A stretch of 42,153 nucleotides of DNA. Source: Acidobacteriaceae bacterium (GTDB lineage Bacteria > Acidobacteriota > Terriglobia > Terriglobales > Acidobacteriaceae). Where the stretch lies: positions 1-42,153 of the forward strand of contig PLUI01000278.1 in assembly GCA_003164855.1 (NCBI GenBank), read 5' to 3'. Below the pieces are notes generated by a model that searched no databases, had not been told where the DNA came from, and was given only the letters and a program-made list of their open reading frames with translations. Shown piece after piece: positions 26,909 through 32,778 of this stretch; position 1 is the stretch's first letter, and each line of letters begins with the position of its first letter. The position numbers were made by a program, and so were the translations under genes.

Positions 26909-27280
26909 TCACTTCGATGTTTTTGCGTTTTTGTCCGCTGTTCTCTGCGGCTCGTAGGCTGGCCGGTCGGGGCTAAAGTTGGTGCTCAGATAATCGATCA
27001 GAGCATCGCGATCTGCGGGATCGACCACCGCACCCCACTTTGTCATCTTGTCGACGTCCTTGGTCCATGCGGCCTTGCTGAGGCGCTGCTGCAGGATGAT
27101 GCGCGCTTCGTGACATTCCAGACACGCCGTGGTCGCCTGCGCCTGCATTGCACCGCCAGGTAAATCCGCCGTGACGTTCGCGGGAGTTCCCTTCTGCGCC
27201 AGCGAGCCGGTTGTGAGCGCCAGCAGTGCAATTGGCGCGATTCTAGGAAACATTTTACGAAACATGCCTTTACGAAACAT
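26909..27280 (-). CDS. c-type cytochrome, putative sulfite dehydrogenase cytochrome subunit (SorB-like)
   Basis: Signal peptide plus CLECH heme motif; overlaps the end of the Mo-enzyme gene by 11 nt. Confidence 0.75.
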   Translation of the reverse strand: MFRKGMFRKMFPRIAPIALLALTTGSLAQKGTPANVTADLPGGAMQAQATTACLECHEARIILQQRLSKAAWTKDVDKMTKWGAVVDPADRDALIDYLSTNFSPDRPAYEPQRTADKNAKTSK

Positions 27281-28436
27281 GAATCTTCACCTGGTCGACG
27301 GCGTTGTAGAGATAACCGCTGGGGTTCCACACCGGCGTCGCGGGCTGGATGCGTCCCTGGCTGTCGGTTGCGCGTGACTGGATGGTGTAATCGCCAGCTT
27401 TGCCCGGCTTCCAATCGTAGCTCCAAAGGCGCCACGCATAGTGGGATTGGTCGTGGCCGAGTTTCGCGAGACTCCAGGTCGCGCCGCCATCGGCGGAGAT
27501 TTCCACTTTCACGATATCGGCTTCTCCCGCCCACGCCGCGCCATGCACGGTCACTTTGCCGGCCCTCAGGTTCGCGCCGTCGCTCGGTCCGGCAATGACG
27601 GACTTCACGGTCAACGAGGTCACTGCATGCGTGTCTTCGGGCTTCACAGCGTCGCCGGGCTTCACCGGTTGGTTGGGCAACCGGTAACCTGGACTCATAA
27701 AATTGCCCACGAATTCCGCATCGAGCACCTTAATCTCAGTGAGCCATTTGCAGGAGGCCGCGCCGATCCAGCCGGGTACAAGAGCGCGCGCCGGAAACCC
27801 GTGGTGCTTCGTAAGCGGAGATCCGTTCATGTGCGTGGCGATAAGAGTATCGGCATCGAGCGCCTTCTCAATCGGAATGCTGCGAATGAAAGGCGGAACT
27901 TTGCCGGGAACTTCATCGAGGCCTCGGAACATGACGTGCTTACCCGTAGACTTCACTCCGGCGCGCTGCAAAACCTCGCGCAGCCGTGGGCCCGAAAAAC
28001 GCGCCGTGCCTACCGCTCCCTTGCCCCACTGAATGCCAGGCACCTGCGGACGGTGCAAGCTGCGTCCGTTGCCGGCGCATTCCAGCGTATTGACGATGGA
28101 GTGCGTCTCGATCTTCGAAAGCTCCGCCAGGCTTAGCGTCAGCGGCTTCTCCACTTCTCCACCCAGCGAGAGTCTCCAGTCGTTGGCTTCGAGTTCGATA
28201 GGTTCGTGCATGTGATTGCGCACGAAGAAGTGCGGCACCGGCGTAAGCCAGGTATTGAAATATTCGACCGGGCTTTCCAGATCGACGAAGCGGAACGAGC
28301 GAAGGATCATGCCGTCTTCGCCCGGAACCGGGACCGCTTGTCCCTGCGGGAAAGCCCAGGTCAGCATGGCGGGCGCCGCGCCCGCAACCAGCGCCACCCC
28401 TGACATTTGCTTGAGGAAATCACGTCTGGAATTCAT
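27270..28436 (-). CDS. Sulfite oxidase/dehydrogenase-type molybdopterin enzyme (SorA-like), Tat signal
   Basis: MNSRRDFLKQMSGVALVAGAAP; HSIVNTLECAGNGRSLHRPQVPG (Mo-ligand Cys region), HGFPARALVPGWIGAASCKWLTEI, C-terminal Mo-co dimerisation domain. Confidence 0.92.
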   Translation of the reverse strand: MNSRRDFLKQMSGVALVAGAAPAMLTWAFPQGQAVPVPGEDGMILRSFRFVDLESPVEYFNTWLTPVPHFFVRNHMHEPIELEANDWRLSLGGEVEKPLTLSLAELSKIETHSIVNTLECAGNGRSLHRPQVPGIQWGKGAVGTARFSGPRLREVLQRAGVKSTGKHVMFRGLDEVPGKVPPFIRSIPIEKALDADTLIATHMNGSPLTKHHGFPARALVPGWIGAASCKWLTEIKVLDAEFVGNFMSPGYRLPNQPVKPGDAVKPEDTHAVTSLTVKSVIAGPSDGANLRAGKVTVHGAAWAGEADIVKVEISADGGATWSLAKLGHDQSHYAWRLWSYDWKPGKAGDYTIQSRATDSQGRIQPATPVWNPSGYLYNAVDQVKIHVS

Positions 28437-28524
28437 ATTCTTGAAATATGATCTTGAGAGCATGGGTATGCATCACGTCAGAAATATCTGATCTGTGAGT
28501 TCTTGCCGTAAATATAAGTTAACA

Positions 28525-28641
28525 CCACCGGCCCGGAAAAGGAGAGTAGCCAAAACCGGGCCAGCGGCGTTTCCGAAGGGAAGGCGCCCCTCGAAAAGTT
28601 GAGTGAAAACCGGTGGTCCCGCGTCTACGCGGCGCGGGACC
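28525..28641. ncRNA. Candidate structured RNA element (strand unresolved) adjoining an intrinsic terminator hairpin
   Basis: P1 ACCACCGG(28525-28532)/CCGGTGGT(28610-28617); inner GGCCCGG/CCGGGCC; TTTCC-GAA-GGGAA; CTCGA-AAAG-TTGAG; then GGTCCCGCG-N9-CGCGGGACC. Confidence 0.45.
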
Positions 28642-28650
28642 ATTTTCGGT

Positions 28651-30570
28651 TTACGGCAAGTAATAGCGGAACGAGGTGTAGACCATGTTGTCCAGGCCTG
28701 AGGGCGATCCTGAAGTTCCCGGCCCTGCAACGCCGGACCAAGTCTCCCGGGTCACATAAGAGTACTGCGTGCCGAACTGGAACTTGCCCCTGGGCCCGTT
28801 GTAGAAGCGGTACCAGAAGCCGAGTGTTCCCTCCGCGATCGCACGAGTGTCGGCGGTGCACTTCGAGAGCGAGCCGGGGTTGAATCCCGCTGTGACGCCG
28901 AAAGAAGGAGCAGACTCCGTATAGCAACCAGAGTTCTTGAATTCCGGCGATCCGTAGCCGACATATTCGCCGGTGTTGGCATCGTAATCGGTGGTCCGGC
29001 CAGCGTACTCCCCGCCAGCGTAGGCGTAGACGTCGAGTTTCTTGCCGTGCCACTCGAGCGAGGCTAACCCCTGGTAATCCTTGATCGGATCAGGAGTTCC
29101 ATTGGCATGAATGGCTAGATCGGAAAGCTGGGCTGCACCGTATCGCCCCACTCCGCTGCCTCCGAAAAAGTGCAAACCGAACACGACGTGTTTATTGTCG
29201 AAATTCCAGCGGGCATTGGCGCCAACGCCCCCACCGTTTTTCGAGGAGTTATAGGCACCTGTGACTGAGGTATCCGGCTTGGCACAGTTTGTGGAGCCGC
29301 CGACAAGGAAGTCTGCGCAAGGGAAGGCACGGTCGCGGAACCGGTCGAACAGTCCGAAGATCTCATAGTGTCCGAAACCGGGATCGAGCGCCAACTTGGC
29401 GATAATATCCGGCGACGGGTTGAAGGCATAAGTGGCTGCCGGCGTACAGGTAGTGTAGTAGACGGGGATGGCTCCAGTGGTTGTCGGAGTGTACGAACTG
29501 ATGGAGCATCCAGTGAGTGCGTCGTTGTAGCTGTTGGTTGCACCTGCCTCGCCGAGCAGGAAGTTGTCTGCGTTGTTGTGAGTTGTAAGCGTGGCTTGCG
29601 CATTTTCCATTGCGACGGCAAATGCCACCTTATCGCCGAAGTTTTTGGTTAAGCGAATGCCATACTGCCGGGCGAAAGTGAACCCGACGTTATACCCCGG
29701 GTCGATCGTCATGGGCCGGGCATCGTTGGTTTTGCCCAAGTCGTCGCTGGGTGCAATGCTCGCCTTATTTTCGGTCACCAGACTCCACATTTGCCCGCCG
29801 AGGAAGCTCCATCCATTGTCGAATTTGGCTTGGCCCCAGGCCTGGCGAAGACGGAAAGTATAGCTATTCGTCGACGTGGCTGAGGAGGTGTCGCCGGAGG
29901 AGAGAAAGTCACCCGAGATATAGCTGGAGAACTCCACATTCTTCAGACGCCCGTCAACATACACAGTTGGTCGCGACTGGCGCGCGGAGCCGAAAAACTC
30001 CGATAGCGAGTTCTGCGAAGCACCCGGCATGGTCAGAGAATTGAAGGGTGTCGGAAGGTCCGCTCCGAGGGCTCTTGACCGTCGTACGAATGCAGCTTCC
30101 GCGAAGCCGCCGGGCGTAATGGTGATTCCCCGGAAGTGAATCGATATGACGGGGCTCTCTAGAGGGTTCGTAGGGGGCTGCGCCGGGGTTTCCTGCAGGT
30201 TGAGCCCAGGGGTGGCGTCCTGCTGAACTGCAGCCCCATTGCTCAGCTCAGCGACTTGCCTCGGTGTGACCGGCTGTACTGCACCCGCGTCGGTCTTGCT
30301 CGCAGCCTTCGCCGCCGCTTGCTGGGCCTGCTGGCGCTCCAGTTGCTGTGTGAGTTGGTCGAGTTGCAGTTGCTGCGCGGCCAGAGCATCCTTCAATGCC
30401 TGGACGTCCGCTGCGGTGACGACGGATGGTGCGGGTGCCGCGGGTGCGGCCGCCGCATCGTGCGCCTCATTGGAAGCTAGTGTGTCCTGGCCTGAGGTTT
30501 GGCCCCAAGCGCCGGCGGAAAACGCCATCAGCGTCAGGGCAGTAAAAAACACATTCTTCGTTCGCTTCAT
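28651..30570 (-). CDS. Porin-like outer membrane beta-barrel (DcaP-like) with N-terminal coiled coil
   Basis: Signal peptide; VQALKDALAAQQLQLDQLTQQLERQQAQQAAAKAAS; FRLRQAWGQAKFDNGWSFLGGQMWSL; C-terminal aromatic-rich strand ending FRYYLP. Confidence 0.75.
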   Translation of the reverse strand: MKRTKNVFFTALTLMAFSAGAWGQTSGQDTLASNEAHDAAAAPAAPAPSVVTAADVQALKDALAAQQLQLDQLTQQLERQQAQQAAAKAASKTDAGAVQPVTPRQVAELSNGAAVQQDATPGLNLQETPAQPPTNPLESPVISIHFRGITITPGGFAEAAFVRRSRALGADLPTPFNSLTMPGASQNSLSEFFGSARQSRPTVYVDGRLKNVEFSSYISGDFLSSGDTSSATSTNSYTFRLRQAWGQAKFDNGWSFLGGQMWSLVTENKASIAPSDDLGKTNDARPMTIDPGYNVGFTFARQYGIRLTKNFGDKVAFAVAMENAQATLTTHNNADNFLLGEAGATNSYNDALTGCSISSYTPTTTGAIPVYYTTCTPAATYAFNPSPDIIAKLALDPGFGHYEIFGLFDRFRDRAFPCADFLVGGSTNCAKPDTSVTGAYNSSKNGGGVGANARWNFDNKHVVFGLHFFGGSGVGRYGAAQLSDLAIHANGTPDPIKDYQGLASLEWHGKKLDVYAYAGGEYAGRTTDYDANTGEYVGYGSPEFKNSGCYTESAPSFGVTAGFNPGSLSKCTADTRAIAEGTLGFWYRFYNGPRGKFQFGTQYSYVTRETWSGVAGPGTSGSPSGLDNMVYTSFRYYLP

Positions 30571-30840
30571 TTATAACCTCTCCTTTTGAGTTTTTGTCGA
30601 ACAGCATTTACTGGGAGTTACAGAGCTCTTCGCAATCACAGCTTGCTAAATTCCTTTCATTTCTTCGTCGTCACGCTCAGACATCGACAACCGTACCATA
30701 TCTATTATGAACATCAGTTTGATAGTGATTCGGGGGACGCACCAATCTACACGTTTCTCTGTTAACACAGGATTAAATTGCAGAAAGTTGGGGGAACTTT
30801 CTTAATCGGGATGGCCCACGTTGAGGACGTTGCAGGCTAT

Positions 30841-31335
30841 CTACTCGCCTTTTTGTCCTCCCACAACCATGGGCAGAACACTTCCCTTCTCCTTCTTCTT
30901 GGCTGCACGTTTGCCTTTGCGTGGACCTGGGTCGGCAATAAGGTCCGCCAAACTTGTGTTTTCCAGAATATTGGCGGCCGCATCGCGCACGTCGAGGAAT
31001 AACTGGTAGAGCGCCCGGTGCGGCAGATCGCGATCAATCAACGCCCGCAACTGTTCGGCATCGCCAAACGGCGCCAGCGGGCCGTCGATCAAACGCATGA
31101 TTTCGCTGAGCCGGATCTCGGAAGGATCGCGCCGCAACTGATATCCTCCTTTGGCTCCCCGGACGCTTTCGACGATGCGCGCATTTTTCAGTTCTAACAG
31201 GATGAGTTCCAGAAATTTTTCCGGAAGATTTTCCTCGTACGCGACTTCGCGGATCTTGATCGCGCCCTGGTGGTAATGGCGGGCCAGCATCATCATGGCC
31301 TGCAAAGCATAAAGTCCCTTTTGTGAGATTTTCAT
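30841..31335 (-). CDS. Rrf2-family transcriptional regulator, no Cys residues
   Basis: MKISQKGLYALQAMMMLARHYHQGAIKIREVAYEENLPEKFLELILLELKNARIVESVRGAKGGYQLRRDPSEIRLSEIMRLIDGPLAP; start at 31335. Confidence 0.93.
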   Translation of the reverse strand: MKISQKGLYALQAMMMLARHYHQGAIKIREVAYEENLPEKFLELILLELKNARIVESVRGAKGGYQLRRDPSEIRLSEIMRLIDGPLAPFGDAEQLRALIDRDLPHRALYQLFLDVRDAAANILENTSLADLIADPGPRKGKRAAKKKEKGSVLPMVVGGQKGE

Positions 31336-31353
31336 AGCGCCGACATTATGCCA

Positions 31354-31380
31354 CAAAGTCGATTCCATTACTAGACTTTG
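31354..31380. promoter_or_regulatory. Candidate operator upstream of the rrf2-like gene
   Basis: Perfect inverted repeat CAAAGTC-N13-GACTTTG just 5' of the chosen start. Confidence 0.4.
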
Positions 31381-31659
31381 CGAACGACACGGATATAGCA
31401 ACTGCGATTCCTTTTCTCCAGGGACTGGAATATCCCGGTAACGCAACACTACTCAATCACTTGCGGCGATCTCTGCAAGTCGGCGGGCAGGCACGGAAGT
31501 GCAACTCATTGCAGTTTCGGCGGGAATTCTGCGCACGCAGCCCAAACGCTCTTGAGAGGCTAACTCCGGCGGAGCAAGAATCGTATGCCTTCCCTTGGGC
31601 TGGTTTTCTCGCGAGTTCGATCGCTTCCTGTACACATTCAAGATGCGGAAAGGAATGTT

Positions 31660-32778
31660 ATGCGCCCACTTCGCTTTCCACGCTTTCGTAAACTCGATTG
31701 CAGGAACCAAGCCTACGCTCTTCTTCTCCTGTGCGCAGCGACAGCGCCTCCGATAGCTGCGCAGACCTTCACCACGCTGTTTAGCTTCGATGGCACAGAC
31801 GGTGCCGACTCCTCCGCGACACTGGTCCAGGCCACCAATGGGAACCTCTACGGGGCAACGGTGGAGGGCGGGGCCAACGGCTTTGGCGCAATATTCAAAA
31901 TCACCCCAACTGGGACGCTGACAACGCTTTACAGCTTTTGCTCTCGAAGTGACTGCTTCAGCGCATACCCCGGGGGTCTGGTCCAGGCCGCCAATGGGAA
32001 CTTCTACGGGACAACGATAGAGGGCGGGGCCAACAACCAAGGCACGGTCTTCAAAATCACCCCCAGCGGCACGCTGACCACGCTTTATAGCTTTTGCTCC
32101 CCAAGCGGCTGCGCGGATGGCGTCAGTCCCTTCGCGCCGCTGGTCCAGGCCACCGATGGGGACCTCTACGGGACAACCGACTACGGCGGGGCCAACGGCT
32201 ACGGGACGGTCTTCAAAATCACCCCCAGCGGCACGCTGACCACGCTGTACAGTTTCGACGGCACGGTCTTCACCTACCCCCACGCGCTGGTCCAGGCCAC
32301 CGATGGGAATTTCTACGGGACAACGCAAGAGGGAGGGACCAACGACTCGGGCACGGTCTTCAAAATCACCCCAAGCGGCACACTGACCACGCTCTACAAC
32401 TTTTGTTCCCAAAGCGGTTGCACAGACGGGGCTCAACCCTTTGCGGGGCTGGTCCAGGATACTAATGGGGACCTCTATGGGACAACTCAGATTGAAGGCG
32501 CCAATAATGACGGCACGGTCTTCCGCCTGTCAATAAGTCTGCGCCCGTTTGTGGAAACAAATCCTACCTCCGGCAAGGTGGGTGCGGCCGTTAAGATTCT
32601 GGGAACCAGTCTGACAGGCGCGACCAGCGTCACACTTAACGGAACCACGGCCACGTTCACAGTCGCGTCGAACACGGAAATCAAGACCACCGTACCCGCC
32701 GGAGCGACGACTGGTATTGTCGAAGTGACAACGCCCACCCGTACCCTCAAGAGCAATGTGGTATTCCGGGTGCCGTAG
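31660..32778 (+). CDS. GloVer tandem-repeat protein (TIGR03803-type) with C-terminal IPT/TIG-like domain
   Basis: Repeats LVQATDGDLYGTTDYGGANGYGTVFKITPSGTLTTLYSF; C-term PTSGKVGAAVKILGTSLTGATSVTLNGTTATFTVASNTEIKTTVPAGATTGIVEVTTP; start at 31660 or 31585. Confidence 0.9.
   Translation: MRPLRFPRFRKLDCRNQAYALLLLCAATAPPIAAQTFTTLFSFDGTDGADSSATLVQATNGNLYGATVEGGANGFGAIFKITPTGTLTTLYSFCSRSDCFSAYPGGLVQAANGNFYGTTIEGGANNQGTVFKITPSGTLTTLYSFCSPSGCADGVSPFAPLVQATDGDLYGTTDYGGANGYGTVFKITPSGTLTTLYSFDGTVFTYPHALVQATDGNFYGTTQEGGTNDSGTVFKITPSGTLTTLYNFCSQSGCTDGAQPFAGLVQDTNGDLYGTTQIEGANNDGTVFRLSISLRPFVETNPTSGKVGAAVKILGTSLTGATSVTLNGTTATFTVASNTEIKTTVPAGATTGIVEVTTPTRTLKSNVVFRVP

Follow-up and report, generated by a model that had tools for sequence, protein, structure and literature searches.

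Regulation by bacterial 3' UTRs has, to our knowledge, been studied experimentally in a handful of cases, mostly in Proteobacteria and Firmicutes. In Staphylococcus aureus, the 3'-UTR motif UCCCCUG of icaR pairs with the Shine-Dalgarno (SD) sequence of its own mRNA, which blocks ribosome loading and creates a duplex that RNase III can cleave (PMC3868564). Two 3'-UTR-derived sRNAs, the autoregulatory OppZ and the porin-repressing MalH, are processed by RNase E, and OppZ is Hfq-dependent (PMC9438474, PMC7398697). The alphaproteobacterial alpha-r8 sRNAs SisA-D carry a conserved, 10-nt anti-SD-like sequence, UUUCCUCCCU, that pairs upstream of start codons, and CrfA acts as a sponge of SisA-D by means of a G/A-rich loop complementary to UUUCCUCCCU (PMC12559287).

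We have identified a two-hairpin RNA element in the predicted 3' UTR of a porin gene of an Acidobacteriaceae bacterium (contig PLUI01000278.1; the whole stretch of 42,153 nt that was analysed is hereafter referred to as the window). The element is a conserved, covarying RNA of the minus strand and is linked to porin genes. Judging from the complementarity described below, it probably base-pairs with the ribosome-binding sites of porin mRNAs, acting in cis, in trans or both, and lowers their translation. Positions of the element, its parts and the neighboring genes are collected in Table 1.

Table 1. Features of the porin 3'-UTR element and its surroundings in the window
Feature	Position	Strand	Details
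SorA-like sulfite dehydrogenase gene (molybdopterin), downstream neighbor of the element	27270-28436	-	PF00174, E 4e-56
Whole element, two-hairpin RNA in porin 3' UTR	28519-28601	-	Covariance model R1, 84 positions, 99.7 bits, E 1.9e-18
HP-B: AACGCCGCUGGCCCGG-[loop]-CCGGGCCGGUGGUGUU	28521-28571	-	19-nt loop; 14-bp conserved core 28523-28536/28556-28569
HP-B loop invariant core, 5'-CUCUCCUUUU-3' (anti-Shine-Dalgarno)	28537-28546	-	Perfect complement of 30578-30587
HP-A: UUUUCGAGGGG-CGCCUU-CCCUUCGGAAA	28570-28597	-	10-11 pairs, two G.U
HP-T, GC-rich stem-loop just past porin stop	28612-28644		Terminator-like in scan, plus strand only
Porin gene	28651-30570	-	Signal peptide, coiled coil and predicted beta-barrel
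Porin Shine-Dalgarno, 5'-AAAAGGAGAG-3', proposed pairing partner	30578-30587	-	Exact complement of loop core CUCUCCUUUU

The element lies in the gap (28464-28650) between the porin and sulfite dehydrogenase genes, both of which are encoded on the minus strand. A Pfam search of the porin gave no match. Its AlphaFold model has ~20 strands at a low-confidence pLDDT of 50.9, and the top Foldseek matches to this model were OmpF/OmpC porins, with E values down to 9e-11; the designation as a porin is well founded as a predicted fold, not as a function. The product of the sulfite dehydrogenase gene scored 312.6 bits against the SorA model, under its cut-off of 600. Together with a CymR-like Rrf2 regulator and a SorB-like cytochrome c, these genes form what resembles a cluster for sulfur acquisition (26909-31449, minus strand). 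A sulfonate-type ABC transporter was seen upstream of the porin in relatives (L082, L089, L091, L095, L099 and L100). Beyond the locus, at 31453-32778, is a repetitive coding region; units resembling GNLYGTT/TPSGTLTTLYSF recur in it on the plus strand, and a long minus-strand reading frame overlaps it.

The initial annotation of this gap had proposed a riboswitch-like junction of four helices on the plus strand of 28525-28641. The complementary stretches are present, as is a 9-bp stem, GGTCCCGCG/CGCGGGACC, at 28615-28623/28633-28641. The 8-bp closing helix also exists, although it joins 28524-28531, rather than 28525-28532, to 28610-28617, and it cannot form fully together with the GGCCCGG hairpin because both use G28530-G28531. 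Both strands of 28525-28641 fold more stably than shuffled sequences (z = -4.1 on the plus strand and -5.0 on the minus strand). Across 16 homologues, the four-helix structure was paired in 71.7% of cells as compared with 71.8% in shuffles, and the closing helix was paired in 29%. With comparative support lacking, and with both strand variation and homologue pairing against it, the plus-strand junction was dropped.

It is the minus strand that corresponds to the RNA sense, because G.U pairs on this strand turn into A.C mismatches on the plus strand. In an alignment of 16 elements, including that of the window, that was built without reference to structure, the minus strand gave 315 Watson-Crick, 59 G.U and 4 A.C cells, and the consensus energy was -37.9 kcal/mol, versus -10.5 kcal/mol for the plus strand. 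A larger set, consisting of copies found by the covariance model and hence fitted to it and leaning towards structure, gave 130 G.U versus 12 A.C cells on the minus strand. In the 39 model-found copies, 98.1% of cells pair, both-side changes occur in 12 of 24 pairs (3.5 in shuffles), and all five covariation measures exceeded every one of 500 shuffles. In these sequences, HP-A is paired in 97.7% of cells and has both-side changes in six of its ten pairs (for example, U-A in 19 sequences and C-G in 12); the corresponding values for HP-B are 98.3% and 6/14. RNAalifold by itself returned the same two hairpins. Conservation peaks in the HP-B loop core, CUCUCCUUUU, whose CUCUCC is identical in 39/39 aligned copies.

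A small RNA transcribed from the plus strand with its own terminator had also been suggested for the gap. A terminator-like hairpin does occur on that strand, as does a weak match to CrfA (RF01527; 21.2 bits, E 0.064). The match falls below the gathering threshold of 38 and is absent from 12 homologues, the variation produces A.C mismatches on the plus strand, and the structure drawn for that strand has no support across homologues; we regard such an sRNA as very improbable and rejected CrfA as an identification. The weak CrfA score of the strand antisense to the element may be due to the CrfA loop being complementary to an anti-SD stretch. Rfam 15, which includes the molybdenum-cofactor and SAM riboswitches, gave no gathering-level match in the whole window, and in homologues only sub-threshold matches at chance level were returned. 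The expectation of a functional RNA outside the known classes was borne out, in that the minus-strand element is conserved and covarying and has no Rfam match.

The distribution of the element places it with the porin. A DNA search found close copies solely within the genus of the window, and a search with the porin protein returned 25 loci, mostly from Candidatus Sulfotelmatobacter and other Acidobacteriaceae MAGs. Sixteen elements, that of the window among them, sit directly behind the porin stop codon, whether or not a sulfite dehydrogenase gene follows. Of 398 family genomes, 35 contained matches to covariance model R1, with 40 copies in all; 32 of these 35 genomes belong to the genus itself (Ca. 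Sulfotelmatobacter, soil Acidobacteriota) and three to one sister genus. Widening the search to the order added nothing convincing, and weak matches in two genomes (G289 and G093) were discarded, as they comprised the stem without the conserved loop and had no porin nearby. All but one of the copies (39/40) are directly 3' of a porin gene, on the same strand and within about 180 nt, and tandem porins have a copy each. The exception, L100, lies behind an ABC permease and is the most degenerate copy at 42.8 bits. Therefore, the element probably belongs to the tail of the porin mRNA. A repeat or mobile element was rejected, as the window's own genome has one copy and relatives have one or two, nearly always after a porin.

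The conserved block stops right after ..GGTGTTAAC and leaves out HP-T, which is missing at loci of the second porin type (L082, L089, L091 and L095), where the element starts at the stop codon or inside it. After the stop codons of type-1 porins, this GC-rich stem-loop has no U-tract on the minus strand. At type-1 porins, HP-T might end transcription before the element is reached. Downstream of HP-B, no conserved U-tract of a terminator was found in the element copies.

A role on the other side of the gap, in a riboswitch-like or anti-SD-controlled 5' leader for the SorA-like sulfite dehydrogenase, appears improbable. Such a role would suit the about 23 of 40 copies that are followed, mostly at 40-90 nt, by a sulfite dehydrogenase gene, and in the window this gene has no obvious SD of its own. 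The remaining copies (about 17) have no such gene adjacent and nevertheless reach scores as high as 106 bits, whereas the sole copy without a porin is degenerate; given the copies without sorA, a SorA leader was rejected as the main role. The initial annotation, which had offered a minus-strand leader of the molybdenum enzyme as an option, was correct as to the strand, whereas the leader role is at best secondary.

Complementarity between the loop and the porin leader was assessed in the 29 element-porin pairs in which both ends were readable. The longest perfect complement measured 8 nt in three pairs, 9 nt in one, 10 nt in 23, 11 nt in one and 13 nt in one; it reached at least 10 nt in 25/29 and at least 8 nt in 29/29, so that in every pair, as in icaR, the gene's own SD has a complement in the element. 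The core of both partners is nearly invariant across pairs. The 13-nt complement (AAAGGAGAGAAGC) occurs between the element of L090 (4216-4295) and its porin leader and is longer than elsewhere; it is possibly a compensatory change, with L092 as a counter-example. Leaders of element-bearing porins (e.g. L068 and L089) follow the pattern AAAAGGAGAGGAYUNNANUUCCAUG, with unusually long spacing between SD and AUG that a short GGA/UCC hairpin could shorten.

The porin site is rare. The pattern AAAAGGAGAG-N(4-18)-ATG occurs at three places in the whole 5.2-Mb genome, namely at this porin, at a second porin by a polyphosphate kinase (PPK) gene and within the reading frame of an ABC transporter. Among 251 ORFs in 400 kb from a relative, one reaches 10-nt complementarity to the loop, and a single AAAAGGAGAG gene start, that of a porin, was found among 251-324 reading frames. 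When plain duplex energy was used with all candidate starts allowed, the porin of G143 ranked only 51st among 409 ORFs; chance duplexes rich in GC score well in this ranking, so that the porin did not stand out, whereas it did in the test of exact complementarity. The computed cost of opening is 2.4 kcal/mol for the HP-B loop and 3.0 kcal/mol for the porin site, and the 10-bp loop/SD duplex is predicted at -12.5 kcal/mol, versus -9.4 kcal/mol for a consensus 16S tail. Hfq-like genes are present.

From these features we infer loop-SD pairing and its repression of porins. In the mechanism hypothesized, the 3' UTR of the porin mRNA would carry the two-hairpin element and its long hairpin would display the anti-SD CUCUCCUUUU in the 19-nt loop. 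The loop would pair with AAAAGGAGAG of its own mRNA, either intramolecularly or between two copies, and may also pair with the mRNA of the second porin of the genome, which has the same AAAAGGAGAG and lacks the element. Ribosomes would thereby be prevented from loading, and the duplex might also become a target of RNase III, so that the level of porin mRNA would feed back on porin synthesis. A wider proposal is that of a genus-wide porin-balancing circuit in Acidobacteriota, in which the 3' UTR of the sulfur-locus porin would silence the mRNA that carries it and also, acting in trans, that of the PPK-linked porin, so that the transcript of one porin would set the translation of the other; this extension is tentative and, in our estimation, somewhat unlikely.

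Several observations weigh against the pairing model. The second porin, located upstream of the PPK gene (G000:C114:18933-18949, minus strand; L122/L124), has the AAAAGGAGAG site and no 3' element. The same PPK-linked porin recurs with this site in many genomes of the genus, PPK-linked porins have it also in genomes in which no element was found, and two porins (L155 and L156) retain the AAAAGGAGAG leader after loss of the element. The element therefore does not explain the leader, full dependence of the leader on it is ruled out, and the site has a reason of its own to exist, such as being a strong SD. That the porin leader occurs without the element would suit a structural 3'-UTR element with a role in stability or processing of the porin(-sorA) mRNA, or a protein-binding site, with the anti-SD likeness arising otherwise, for example through 30S capture or mimicry of the 16S tail. 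Strong, stable hairpins immediately past the stop codon are also in keeping with such an element, and its loop, GGCUCACUCUCCUUUU, resembles the 3' tail of 16S rRNA, a likeness for which the computed value is the SD pairing energy alone. However, it is precisely the invariant stretch of the loop that complements an almost porin-unique site, and a purely structural role is, in our view, unlikely, which leaves control of porin translation by loop-SD pairing as the preferred reading.

By comparative genomics alone, a covarying 3'-UTR structure could be tied, in about 35 genomes of an environmental group, to a putative target within the very gene it follows, and the element yields a precise prediction of porin feedback that can be tested by mutation. 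No description of it was found in the literature searched, coverage of which was incomplete; the element would constitute an RNA family new to Rfam, with a putative mechanism of a known kind. As in SisA-D, an anti-SD-like stretch is conserved (10 nt in the alpha-r8 sRNAs, the loop core in the porin element), although the alpha-r8 sRNAs are unrelated in sequence and are free-standing genes. As with OppZ and MalH, an mRNA 3' end would here act on the operon it comes from or on the mRNAs of porins; unlike them, the element lacks a conserved U-tract terminator after HP-B. The nearest worked-out precedent, by analogy, is icaR, which likewise has a C/U-rich 3'-UTR motif complementary to the SD of its own gene (PMC3868564). 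The present case differs in motif, gene and phylum and is known from sequence; here the complementary stretch lies in a hairpin loop of a conserved element, and this element has been kept across a genus together with a porin family.
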